DNA from: Microbispora catharanthi
GTDB taxonomy: Bacteria; Actinomycetota; Actinomycetes; Streptosporangiales; Streptosporangiaceae
DNA: 64,000 nucleotides
NCBI RefSeq assembly: GCF_006334915.2
Contig: NZ_VDMA02000008.1
Coordinates: 248,001 to 312,000 of the forward strand
Direction of reading: 5' to 3'
A program made the position numbers and the translations under genes. Under the pieces are notes generated by a model. It did not search any database. It was not told the DNA's origin and worked only from the letters and a program-made list of their open reading frames with translations. Positions 48,289 to 52,632 of this stretch are shown piece after piece. The stretch's first letter is position 1. Every line of letters begins with the position of its first letter.

Positions 48289-49545
48289 GTGCGCCGCTAC
48301 GCGGCCCTGGAGACCGCCTCCGGCGCCGCGTTCGACCGGGTGGCGGCCCTGGCCGCGCGGATCTTTCGCGCTCCCTTCGCCACGGTGACGATCGTCGGCG
48401 ACGACACGGTCCGCGTCGTCGCCGCGCACGGGCTGCCACCGCGCCATGGGCTCGTCGAGAGCCTGTGCGCCGCGGCCGTACGGCACGGCGGCCCCTACGT
48501 CGTCCGCGACGCGCTGCTGGACCCTCGAGCGGCCGGCGACCCGGCGGTGCGCGGTGAGCCGGGCATCCGTTTCTACGCCTCCGCGCTGATCACGACGCCC
48601 GACGGCGAGGCACTGGGCAGCGTCAACGTCATGGACGTCCGCCCCCGTGAGGCCGGCGACGAGGAGCTGGCCTGCCTGCGGGACCTGGCCGGCCTCGTCA
48701 TGGACGAACTCGAGGTGCGACTGGCCACGCACCGTACGGTCGAGGTCGAAAGGGAGCTGCGCGCGGGCGCGGAGCGGCTGGCCCGCACCCTGCAGCGCAC
48801 CCTGCTCCCGCCGGCGCTGCCCCGGGTGCCCGGACTGTGCGCGGCCGCCGCCTATCACCCCGTCTCGGCCGACGAGGTGGGTGGCGACTTCTACGACCTG
48901 TTCCCCCTCGACGACGACCGGTGGGGCTTCTTCCTCGGCGATGTCTGCGGCAAGGGCGCCGACGCCGCCGCGCTGACGTCACTGGTCCGCTACACCCTGC
49001 GCGCCGCGGCCGTCTACGACGCCGACCCGCACGCGGTGCTGGCCAATCTCGACGCGGTCCTGCAACAGGAGCACGCGGGCGGCGAGGCCCCGGTGCCGTA
49101 CTGCACGGCGGTCTTCGGCGTCCTGGAGCCCGACGGTGACGGGTTCGGCGTCACGCTCGCCACCGGGGGCCATCCCCCTGCGCTGGCGGTGCGGGCGAAC
49201 GGCGCCGTCGAGCCCATCCACCCGGCGGGCGGTCAGCTGATCGGCATCCTGCGCGATCCCCACTTCGCCCAGGTGAGCGCGCGCCTGAACGCCGGTGACG
49301 CGCTGCTGCTCTACACCGACGGCCTCACCGAGGCGCGGACGCCGTCCGGCTCGATGCTCGACGAAGACGGACTGACCGCGCATCTCGCCGCCACCGGGCC
49401 CACGAGCGCCGACGCCCTCCTCACCACCGTGCACGACCTGATCACGGCCCTGGGCAAGGGGGTGTCAGACGACACCGCGGTCCTCGCCCTGTCCGTCCCG
49501 CCCGCCACTCGAACGCCGTCCTCCGGGAGCCTCGGTGCAGCATGA
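48289..49545 (+). CDS. GAF-domain PP2C-type phosphatase (RsbU/SpoIIE-like)
   Basis: A Ser/Thr phosphatase that should dephosphorylate a STAS antagonist, most likely that encoded by the overlapping downstream gene. Residues 1-150 form a GAF sensor domain; the SpoIIE domain holds VGGDFYDLF and GDVCGKGADAA metal-binding Asp residues and LLYTDGLTEAR, SDDTAVLAL. The first usable start codon, GTG 48289, cuts into the first GAF helix. In-frame coding-like sequence extends back to 48214, where an AAGGAG sits 6 nt before a GTC, so the true start is probably there. Confidence 0.85.
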   Translation: MRRYAALETASGAAFDRVAALAARIFRAPFATVTIVGDDTVRVVAAHGLPPRHGLVESLCAAAVRHGGPYVVRDALLDPRAAGDPAVRGEPGIRFYASALITTPDGEALGSVNVMDVRPREAGDEELACLRDLAGLVMDELEVRLATHRTVEVERELRAGAERLARTLQRTLLPPALPRVPGLCAAAAYHPVSADEVGGDFYDLFPLDDDRWGFFLGDVCGKGADAAALTSLVRYTLRAAAVYDADPHAVLANLDAVLQQEHAGGEAPVPYCTAVFGVLEPDGDGFGVTLATGGHPPALAVRANGAVEPIHPAGGQLIGILRDPHFAQVSARLNAGDALLLYTDGLTEARTPSGSMLDEDGLTAHLAATGPTSADALLTTVHDLITALGKGVSDDTAVLALSVPPATRTPSSGSLGAA

Positions 49546-49894
49546 CAACGGTCTGACCGTCAGCCTCCAGCCGCACACCTCCGGGCCGCACCTGCTGGTC
49601 GTGGCCGGTGACCTGGATCATCACACGACTCCACGCCTACGGGCGGCCCTGGAGGAGGTGAAGTTCGCCCCGGACGCCGATCTGGTGATCGACCTGTCCG
49701 GCCTGACCTTCTGCGACTCCACCGGCATCGCCATACTGGTCGCGGCCCACCAGCGCGCCGCCGACGCGGGCGCCGCCCTGCTCCTGGCGGGCCTGGACCC
49801 CGACATCGCCCGCGTCTTCCAGATCATGGGCCTGGACCGGCTGCTCTCCTTCTACGACAGCCCGGAAGAGGCCGTACGCGCGCTGAGTAAGTGA
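49535..49894 (+). CDS. STAS-domain anti-sigma factor antagonist
   Basis: A 119-residue STAS protein. IDLSGLTFCDSTGIAILVA contains the phosphorylatable Ser. Its GTG overlaps the phosphatase gene by 11 bp, so the two are translationally coupled, giving the phosphatase-antagonist half of a partner switch. The matching kinase is not here; the RsbW-like gene at 21.2 kb is one candidate. Confidence 0.85.
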   Translation: MQHDNGLTVSLQPHTSGPHLLVVAGDLDHHTTPRLRAALEEVKFAPDADLVIDLSGLTFCDSTGIAILVAAHQRAADAGAALLLAGLDPDIARVFQIMGLDRLLSFYDSPEEAVRALSK

Positions 49895-49914: not shown

Positions 49915-50238
49915 CTACAGGGGCGCGGCGACGGCGACCGCGATGTTCTGCCTGATGTCGCAGTTCCTGGCCCGGCGGCAGAAACCGTCCGCCACGCTGG
50001 TCGCCCCGCCCGCGGTGCTGGCCGCGGTGTGCTGGTGACCGCGATTGCGCGTGGGGCTGTCCAGATAGACGATGTTGCGGTTGCGGGTGCCGTTGCCGAC
50101 GGAGGCCGGGCCGTCCCCGTCCCCCCGCCCGGCCCGCGCGTTCGCGGGAGCGGTGAGAAGGACCTGCGCGGCGGTGGCCGCGACGAGGACGACGGCGAAC
50201 AGCGGGACACGCCGAGATGCGCCGCAGGAATGAAGCAT
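49915..50238 (-). CDS. small secreted protein, Cys-pair family member A
   Basis: I do not recognise a named family. The 107-residue product has a signal peptide ending near ANA, a Gly/Asp/Asn-rich stretch (GDGDGPASVGNGTRNRN) and a C-terminal Cys87-x5-Cys93 (CRRARNCDIRQNI). It aligns with the other three small secreted proteins of this region with one extra residue between the GNG and the first Cys. This is the most divergent copy. It converges on the STAS gene with 20 bp between. Confidence 0.65.
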   Translation of the reverse strand: MLHSCGASRRVPLFAVVLVAATAAQVLLTAPANARAGRGDGDGPASVGNGTRNRNIVYLDSPTRNRGHQHTAASTAGGATSVADGFCRRARNCDIRQNIAVAVAAPL

Positions 50239-50353
50239 CCGCCACCGCCCGTCCGCCGATTCGAAGCCTGGTCACACCGTAGCTTCCGCAGCGGTCCTGC
50301 CGGTGATCCCCGGCGCGCGTGTCCCGCCATGTTCCCGGCAGTTTCGCGGCGCG

Positions 50354-50764
50354 TCAGCGTCCGTTGATCACGGTGCCGTTCGTCCTGGGCGAGCTCTGGT
50401 TGCGGCCCCGGAGGTTCTGGGAGCCCCTGCAGCCGGGCCGGTGCAGGCAGTTGGAGGCCTGCGTGTTCACCGACGCGTCCACGCCCGTGATGACCTGCTG
50501 AGCGCCCGTCGTGTTCCGCTGGCTGCCGACGAGCAGGGAGTTCAGGTTGTTCTGACCGTTGTTGATCACATACCTGGAGTTGGCGCCGTTCCCGTCGCCG
50601 CCGCCCCATCCCCGGCTCGTCGCCGCGTCCGCGCTCACGGGGGAGAACGCGAGGCCGGCGCTCGTGAAGGTCAGCGCGGTCAGCGCCAGCAGTCGCGCCG
50701 CCGGGCCGGTGAGCGAGTGCCGCCCCCTGTTGTGAGCCCAGTGACGAGCCCTGTGACGAGCCAT
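50354..50764 (-). CDS. small secreted protein, Cys-pair family member B
   Basis: A 136-residue product with a long basic n-region and a signal peptide cleaved near ADA. The mature part is GDGNGANSRYVINNGQNN, then VGS, AQQ and GVD at 10-, 20- and 24-residue steps, then Cys106-x5-Cys112 and an Asn/Arg-rich tail. The Asn/Gln/Gly periodicity resembles curlin (CsgA) repeats. GGGAGAAC immediately before the ATG gives a ribosome binding site. Transcription is away from the SMP-30 gene. Confidence 0.65.
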   Translation of the reverse strand: MARHRARHWAHNRGRHSLTGPAARLLALTALTFTSAGLAFSPVSADAATSRGWGGGDGNGANSRYVINNGQNNLNSLLVGSQRNTTGAQQVITGVDASVNTQASNCLHRPGCRGSQNLRGRNQSSPRTNGTVINGR

Positions 50765-50992
50765 GTTCTCCCGCGCCTTCCCCGTCGTCCGTCAAGGAGA
50801 TCCGTTCGCACGGACCTGCCGGGCATCTACCCCGGGGTGGCGCGCTCGTCACGGTCGCTGAACGAGGATTAGGACCTCCCAGCGGAACGATCTCCGTTGT
50901 GCTCTGATCCCTCGCGGCGCCGGTGAGAAGCACGCGGAAACTGTCGTAGCGGCCGCGTACTGTCCGATCGAACGCGGCGATGGGAGTCTTCG

Positions 50993-51832
50993 ATGACGGA
51001 ATTGCGCACGTGGCTCACCGGTCTCGGGCTGGTCGAGTCGCCGCGCTGGCACGACGGCCGCCTGTACTTCTCGGACTGGACGGCGCACGAGGTGATCGCG
51101 CTCGGCCTGGACGGCACGCACGAAGTGGTGGCCCGGGTGGACTCGCTTCCGCTCTGCACGGCGTGGCAGGCCGACGGACGGCTGGTGATCGTCGATTCCG
51201 CGCGGGGGCTGCTGCAGCGGCTGGAACCCGACGGCTCGTCGACGACCCTGGCCGACCTCACCGGTCTCGGGCGCGGCTGGAACGACATCGTCATCGACGG
51301 CCGCGGCAACATCTACGTCAACCGGATCGGCTTCGACATGCTCAGCGGTGCGGCGTTCGACCCCGGATACGTCGTGCACGTCGGCCCCGACGGCTCGGCG
51401 CGCCAGGTGGCCGACGACATCGCCTTTCCCAACGGCATGGCCGTGACGCGGGACAACTCGACGCTGATCGTGGCCGACTCGTACGGCAACAGGCTCCTCG
51501 CCTTCGACATCGAGGCGGACGGCGGCCTGTCCCATCGCCGGGTCTGGGCCGGGACCGGCGAGGACCACCCCGACGGCATCTGCGTCGACGCCGAGGGCGC
51601 CGTCTGGTACGCCGACGTCGGCAACAGGCGCTGCGTCCGGATCCGGGAGGGCGGCGAGGTCCTCCAGACCGTCGAAGTCGACCGGGGATGCTTCGCCTGC
51701 ACGCTCGGGGGCCAGGACGGGAAGACGCTGTTCATCGTGGCGGCCGAGTGGCGCATGCCCGAGATGGTGCCACCCGGAACCGGGCAGGTGCTCTCGACCC
51801 GGGTCACGGTGCCCGGCGCGGGCTGGCCGTAG
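50993..51832 (+). CDS. SMP-30/gluconolactonase/LRE family protein
   Basis: A 279-residue six-bladed beta-propeller, probably cytosolic. It begins GLGLVESPRWHDGRLYFSDW, with the metal-ligand Glu in ESP, and has NDIVIDGRGNIYV and ADSYGNRLLAFD with further metal-site residues. Relatives hydrolyse sugar lactones. GGGAG lies before the ATG. It sits inside the small secreted-protein cluster and overlaps convergently with member C by 29 bp, so it looks inserted among them rather than functionally linked. Confidence 0.85.
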   Translation: MTELRTWLTGLGLVESPRWHDGRLYFSDWTAHEVIALGLDGTHEVVARVDSLPLCTAWQADGRLVIVDSARGLLQRLEPDGSSTTLADLTGLGRGWNDIVIDGRGNIYVNRIGFDMLSGAAFDPGYVVHVGPDGSARQVADDIAFPNGMAVTRDNSTLIVADSYGNRLLAFDIEADGGLSHRRVWAGTGEDHPDGICVDAEGAVWYADVGNRRCVRIREGGEVLQTVEVDRGCFACTLGGQDGKTLFIVAAEWRMPEMVPPGTGQVLSTRVTVPGAGWP

Positions 51833-52256
51833 AAGCCCGGCGCAAGGGCGACGACCCGATGCCCCGCCGGGTTCGCGTCTCCGGAAGGCGGACCACGTCG
51901 TTCTGCCGGTCCGACGCCCGCACCCGCTGCGTCAGGTCGCAGAGGCGGGACCACCGGCGGCACATGATGCTCTGCGCGTTCGCCAGGCCGCCGACGCCGA
52001 CCGTCCTCTGCTGGATGCCGGTCGCGCTTCGCGCGCTGCCCACCGTCAGCTGACTGACGTTGCGGATCCCGTTGCCGAGGCGGACGGTGGCGCTGTTGCC
52101 GTTGCGGTCGCCGTTCCCGGCCGCATGGGTGACCGCCGCCTGTGCGGCGGCGGCAGGGGGCAACGCGGCGGCAGGGGGCGACGCGGCGGCAGGGGGCGAC
52201 GCGGCGAGCGCCGCCGTCGCGATCGTGACCGCCGCCAGGGCGAGACCGCAGCGCAT
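51804..52256 (-). CDS. small secreted protein, Cys-pair family member C
   Basis: A 150-residue product with a signal peptide followed by a Pro/Ala-rich linker built from 18-bp DNA repeats. It aligns without gaps to member D: GNG at 61-63, GS at 73-74, Gln83, GVGG at 87-90, Gln95, Cys99 and Cys106, then LTQRVRA. I count 27 identities over 65 residues. The last about 35 residues are Arg-rich, overlap the SMP-30 gene and may be an extension created by loss of an earlier stop. It starts 7 bp after member D, so they form an operon. Confidence 0.65.
   Translation of the reverse strand: MRCGLALAAVTIATAALAASPPAAASPPAAALPPAAAAQAAVTHAAGNGDRNGNSATVRLGNGIRNVSQLTVGSARSATGIQQRTVGVGGLANAQSIMCRRWSRLCDLTQRVRASDRQNDVVRLPETRTRRGIGSSPLRRASTASPRRAP
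52147..52200 (-). repeat. three tandem 18-bp units in member C
   Basis: GCGGCGGCAGGGGGCGAC is repeated at 52165-52182 and 52183-52200, with a one-base variant at 52147-52164. On the coding strand it gives the Ser/Leu-Pro-Pro-Ala-Ala-Ala linker after the signal peptide. Confidence 0.85.
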
Positions 52257-52263
52257 CAGCGGG

Positions 52264-52632
52264 TCACCGCCGGGTGGCCCTGGCTCTGGTGGCGCGGATG
52301 TCCTGCGACAGCGCGCAGAGCCGGCCGCGCGGCCTGCACAGGCCGCCCTGCACGCTGCTGAGCCCGCCCACTCCCGCCGAGAACTGGTGCAGGGCGCCGC
52401 GCAGGTGCGTGCTGCCCATCGCCACCAGGTTGCGGTTGGCCGAGCCGTTGCCCACGCGTACGGCGGAGCCGTTCCCGTTGCCGTCACCGGCCGCCGCCGC
52501 GCCCGCGGCCACCGGCGCCACCAGGGCCAGAGCCAGGGCCAGGGCCGGCGCGAGGGCGAGCGTCGCCGCCGTCGTCGCGGGCCGTCGCGGAAGGGAGTCA
52601 GGAAATCCCGTGAGGGTGTGGATGATCGGCAT
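52264..52632 (-). CDS. small secreted protein, Cys-pair family member D
   Basis: A 122-residue product with a signal peptide (LALALALVAPVAAG) and the mature motif series GDGNGNGSAVRVGNGSANRN, AMGS, Gln83, GVGG, Cys99-x6-Cys106, LSQDIRA. The pattern of Asn, Gly and Gln about every ten residues is like curlin repeats, and the paired cysteines could form a disulfide after export. AGAGG lies 8 nt before the ATG. It is the first gene of a two-gene operon with member C. The function is unknown. Confidence 0.65.
   Translation of the reverse strand: MPIIHTLTGFPDSLPRRPATTAATLALAPALALALALVAPVAAGAAAAGDGNGNGSAVRVGNGSANRNLVAMGSTHLRGALHQFSAGVGGLSSVQGGLCRPRGRLCALSQDIRATRARATRR

Follow-up and report, generated by a model that had tools for sequence, protein, structure and literature searches.

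The window analysed here, a 64,000-nucleotide stretch of Microbispora catharanthi DNA, carries a cluster of four small minus-strand genes, A to D, and the question which this locus raises is what kind of proteins they encode. An earlier note on this DNA described them as a family of secreted proteins of 107–150 residues with a cysteine pair and a curlin-like periodicity. The four reading frames are found as described (Table 1), and in all of them a hydrophobic N-terminal stretch followed by Ala-x-Ala-like sites predicts export. By sequence comparison A–D belong to an unnamed family of small exported proteins, restricted in lineage, that share a homologous domain of about 70 residues; export and homology are well supported, and the curlin part of the description did not survive.

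Table 1. Features of the A–D cluster and its surroundings (window positions; E-values from the profile built on other genera)
Feature	Position	Strand	Description
SpoIIE-type phosphatase with GAF-like domain, and STAS protein	48289-49894	converge on gene A	Pfam
Gene A	49915..50238	-	107 aa; QHT branch; predicted export signal, then domain of about 70 residues; short, without C-terminal tail; E = 6.4e-24
Cys-pair motif of A	49948..49992	-	ADGFCRRARNCDIRQ; Ala in place of the first Gln
Gene B	50354..50764	-	136 aa; QQ branch; richest in Asn/Gln (27% of domain); E = 1.4e-7
Cys-pair motif of B	50417..50461	-	QASNCLHRPGCRGSQ
SMP-30/gluconolactonase-like gene	50993..51832	+	between B and C; PF08450, E = 2e-44; outside the family
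Gene C	51804..52256	-	150 aa; ATG at 52256; QQ branch; E = 4.6e-11
Cys-pair motif of C	51927..51974	-	QSIMCRRWSRLCDLTQ
Gene D	52264..52632	-	122 aa; QQ branch; first gene of the cluster; E = 4.4e-13
Cys-pair motif of D	52303..52350	-	QGGLCRPRGRLCALSQ

The homology is carried by a profile of 77 unique domains, all derived from outside Microbispora, which picked exactly A–D among the 684 window frames of at least 45 residues and gave no matches with the same frames reversed; shuffled A–D sequences reached at most 9.1 bits against 27–79 bits for the real ones. Compared pairwise, C and D align without gaps with 29 of 66 residues identical (27 of 65 in the earlier hand count; BLASTP E = 1e-10) and possess Cys99 and Cys106 in both proteins, while the pair has the C-x5-C form in B (residues 106 and 112) and in A (residues 87 and 93). 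Gene A is offset relative to the other three, and A and B show no BLASTP similarity when compared alone, the family profile being the sole link between the two.

In total 222 domains (179 unique, with some genomes represented twice) were collected from fetched loci of about ten genera, and their cysteine spacing is C-x5-C in 123, C-x6-C in 96, and C-x7-C in three. As the domains were located by searching for such a pair inside a profile hit, the fair count is one hit without the pair among 223, and this lone exception stops just after its first cysteine. At L051:5171-5560 (genome G001) a copy ending directly after the first cysteine lies beside two intact copies and is possibly decayed or truncated. 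In an alignment of 83 sequences Cys51 and Cys58 are invariant and Gly32, Gln34, and Gln62 reach at least 90%; glutamine stands four residues before the first cysteine in 83% of the domains and four residues after the second in 89%, the usual arrangement being the symmetric motif Q-x3-C-x5/6-C-x3-Q. The family signature can be given as an export-type N-terminus and a domain of about 70 residues with G-x-Q-[QH] and this motif, which A–D fit, A without the first glutamine. Homologues with both the GNG motif and the cysteine spacing exist in related genomes. A strongly hydrophobic stretch precedes the domain in 92% of the members versus 13% of control frames. The domain itself is basic, not hydrophobic (mean GRAVY -0.67; Arg+Lys 12% versus Asp+Glu 4%), and its mean composition includes 17% Asn+Gln, 12% Gly, and 17% Ser+Thr.

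The absence of a named family with this layout was confirmed, since profile searches matched no characterised family: A–D have no convincing model match in Pfam or NCBIfam, the PDB sequence search gave no match up to E = 10, and among Pfam, NCBIfam, and solved structures there are no relatives of known name. A literature search on Microbispora surface proteins likewise returned nothing useful.

The distribution of the family is narrow, covering about a dozen genera of spore-forming soil bacteria, Microbispora and its relatives. With a profile of the four sequences A–D, 28 of 150 related genomes proved to contain relatives, among them all 14 further Microbispora genomes, and each of 15 Microbispora genomes has at least four copies. 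The M. catharanthi genome contains 14 members at E < 1e-6 and one marginal member: four in the window cluster, one pair on each of contigs C66 and C9, and six that stand alone. In wider samples, where a first filter scored a limited set of candidates and rare distant members could be missed, positive results were obtained for 50 of 251 genomes (11 of 68 genera) of the taxonomic family, 49 of 299 genomes (11 of 62 genera) of the order, 5 of 395 genomes of the class, all Microbispora, and 1 of 397 genomes of the phylum, namely, M. catharanthi itself. A scan of named genomes yielded 24 loci, 11 from Microbispora and the others from Sphaerisporangium, Planotetraspora, Microtetraspora, Actinoallomurus, a strain filed as Actinomadura, and an unclassified member of the Streptosporangiaceae. 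Microbispora, Microtetraspora, Planotetraspora, Sphaerisporangium, and Actinoallomurus are spore-forming mycelial genera.

The origin of the cluster by local duplication, as proposed earlier, holds only in part. In a FastTree phylogeny of 133 domains B, C, and D group with other Microbispora paralogues of the QQ type (support 0.89), so that one branch holds the three together with paralogues encoded elsewhere, while A sits on an older branch which spans genera, together with "GYQHTS" proteins from outside its own genus (this half of the tree has a support of 0.92, and A itself 1.0). The deep nodes of such a short domain are weak, and monophyly of B, C, and D has a support of 0.06. Judged from this tree, A–D are not the product of one simple duplication. 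At least two members occur together in 37 of 49 other loci, always on the same strand (37 of 37) and in the order QQ then QHT in 26 of 37; orthologous loci of related species are among them, which means that the pairs do not amount to 37 independent events. Because members sit together on one strand, usually with QQ first and QHT second, a QQ/QHT hetero-pair appears to have been the ancestral unit, enlarged in Microbispora. The QHT partner often has a Pro/Thr-rich tail, and no Pfam match above the cut-off was obtained for those tailed partners that were searched. QHT-type proteins with such tails, ending in varied hydrophobic segments and in some cases with a second cysteine pair, are encoded at L053:4882-5736, L049:4299-4925, and L084:4819-5490.

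Neighbouring proteins are mostly 80–98% identical to those of related species and A–D about 45–92%, and by this comparison A–D evolve faster than their neighbours. The dN/dS ratio, a rough estimate in high-GC DNA, is mostly 0.15–0.6 for ungapped domains, which for most comparisons points to purifying selection; the ratios above 1 obtained for C versus three genomes (L036, L046, and L047) were discarded as artefacts of unaligned domains being compared one residue out of register.

In most single-contig Microbispora clusters the order D-C-B-A, followed by the converging STAS gene and the SpoIIE-type phosphatase, is kept; the four-gene cluster was not seen in M. corallina and M. oryzae when searched with the four-sequence model. 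The stop codon of D and the start of C are separated by 7 nt, and the two genes may be co-transcribed. The SMP-30 gene and C converge with a 29-nt overlap in which the last codons and the stop of C are antisense to the SMP-30 gene, and the same arrangement is present in M. siamensis. Since this gene lies between C and B only in the window and in M. siamensis and is missing from other Microbispora clusters, it probably entered the cluster in the common ancestor of the two, in agreement with the insertion suggested earlier. Conserved DNA across Microbispora was also observed upstream of the D start (52632; GCGGGGTAGAGGCAC) and upstream of A (50238; GGGACACG...GCTACGGTGTGA), both possibly promoters; a scan for sigma-70 promoters and terminators found none.

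Structure prediction gave only a few short strands, with AlphaFold2 pLDDT of 51.5 and 51.6 for alignments of 83 and 101 sequences, which may mean that the chain is disordered until it assembles or just that the alignments lacked depth. Covariation, measured as mutual information, is weak, and one signal (columns 49-60) is in the register of a hairpin while others are not. The cysteine pair is likely to be disulfide-bonded after export, and the persistence of the glutamine symmetry around it with a loop of either five or six residues suggests that it closes a short β-hairpin with an Arg/Lys-rich loop.

According to these data A–D are tentatively regarded as a two-type, disulfide-braced structural protein of the cell surface or spore coat, a role which many copies of small exported polar proteins rich in Asn, Gln, Gly, Ser, and Thr would fit. 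After export the two cysteines would form the disulfide that closes the hairpin, and the two highly conserved glutamines, each four residues outside its cysteine, would face one another. The subunits would be structural, with QQ and QHT types, the latter often Pro/Thr-tailed, assembling together outside the cell wall. Aerial hyphae or spores would be the most likely site, where the short type would make up the bulk and the long-tailed type could serve as anchor or nucleator. The neighbours across genera include no conserved gene that ties the family to sporulation or to a dedicated export or assembly machine, the shared ones being just a few unannotated frames, several of them antisense to family genes. 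A SpoIIE-type phosphatase and a STAS protein do lie beside the Microbispora cluster, but both are common regulators.

As a special case of the coat role, the proteins could be functional amyloids, which form cross-β fibres and resemble rodlins in behaviour and not in ancestry. This appears unlikely, even though the domain composition is close to that of CsgA (21, 21, and 16% for the same residue groups) and the amyloid peptides of RdlB, NGNGASQYFGNSMTTGN and MSPQMALIQGSFNKP (PMC5314377), resemble "GDGNGANSRYVINNGQNNLNSLLVGSQRN" of B in style. Gln-Gln spacings of 13–15 residues are enriched (x12 0.41, x13 0.87, and x14 0.55 per domain versus 0.19 in shuffled sequences), but this can follow simply from three conserved glutamine positions. 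Moreover, the domains are charged and rich in Arg/Lys, profile similarity to rodlins or curlins is lacking, and no internal repeat has the curlin length of 22-23 residues, offset 28 alone being noticeable (z 3.2, the best of 37 offsets).

Another explanation is that the family represents small secreted disulfide peptides directed against other organisms or enzymes, such as bacteriocin-like or defensin-like peptides or protease inhibitors, which were expanded by competition. Small size, secretion, basic charge, the capacity for a disulfide, the many copies, and an evolution faster than that of the neighbours all agree with it; nevertheless, it is considered improbable, as the members have just two cysteines, occur in tandem hetero-pairs with a strictly conserved polar framework, have no conserved immunity or processing gene alongside, and show dN/dS values in which positive selection was not seen.

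That the proteins are true curlins, the subunits of curli-type amyloid, is hardly credible, despite export and superficial Asn/Gln/Gly steps: PF07012 is unmatched in the M. catharanthi genome (with a positive E. coli control) and in Pfam scans of the 83 members, Q-x10-Q is not enriched over shuffles (0.16 per domain versus 0.21; CsgA 7), the profile comparison with CsgA/CsgB reveals no similarity (hhalign probability 0.1%), and AlphaFold2 gives no confident β-solenoid, with pLDDT 52 against a mean of 83 ± 9 for 2686 curlins in the study from which the sequence criteria were taken (PMC10192328). The N-x-psi-x-psi-x-Q motif occurs 0.16 times per domain versus 0.14 in shuffled sequences and 9 in CsgA, and a tandem repeat of about 23 residues was not found (offset 22, z 0.35). 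On the sequence criteria curlin identity is refuted, and the periodicity claimed earlier is not supported.

Under the surface or spore-coat reading, the family may bear on an observation in Sphaerisporangium cinnabarinum, whose mycelium binds amyloid-conformation antibodies and for which the responsible protein was left unassigned (PMC5968725). The named-genome scan places the family in Sphaerisporangium genomes; the S. cinnabarinum assembly (4.39 Mb) is small versus the 7.5–10.1 Mb Sphaerisporangium genomes examined, and the connection is a lead only. Speculatively, and with little confidence, a two-component extracellular fibre or coat of Streptosporangiaceae could be envisaged, in which paralogous disulfide-hairpin subunits, unrelated to curli, chaplins, and rodlins, would assemble together, needing no dedicated export machine, and might account for the Sphaerisporangium signal. 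The family is multi-copy and present in every Microbispora genome examined, so it is probably of biological importance to these genera. If it does coat aerial hyphae or spores, Streptosporangiaceae would use surface proteins absent from Streptomyces, and the family would become a concrete candidate for the amyloid-like signal, for which no assignment was found.

Among known systems the curlins CsgA/CsgB (PF07012) share with the family export and richness in Asn, Gln, Gly, and Ser; the family, however, has no 22-residue repeat or Q-x10-Q and possesses a conserved cysteine pair, and among its shared neighbours there is no candidate export or assembly set. Rodlins, reported only in streptomycetes (PMC4255298), gave no match in Microbispora when used as a query, with relatives in one genus among 90 sampled. 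Homology to them was rejected at an hhalign probability of about 0.1% or less, which is a weak test with a rodlin alignment of only three sequences. RdlA and RdlB, surface proteins of the sporulating actinomycete Streptomyces, are nevertheless similar in character: they too are small, exported, and rich in Asn, Gly, and Gln, come as pairs of unequal paralogues, and have an NGNG-type stretch near the mature N-terminus and two cysteines; they differ in a cysteine spacing far wider than C-x5/6-C and in the lack of profile similarity. Chaplin identity was also rejected, since PF03777 (ChpA-C) matches neither A–D nor the 83 members, though the model works in this genome. On the contig of the A–D cluster, about 37 kb past the end of the window, a 726-codon frame with seven chaplin (ChpA-C) domain matches (C67:349334-350764) encodes a long multi-domain chaplin-like protein. 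Chaplins (PF03777), coat proteins of organisms that form aerial mycelium, resemble the family in being small and secreted, in their many copies, and in a cysteine pair, but chaplins are hydrophobic, whereas the family is hydrophilic and basic.
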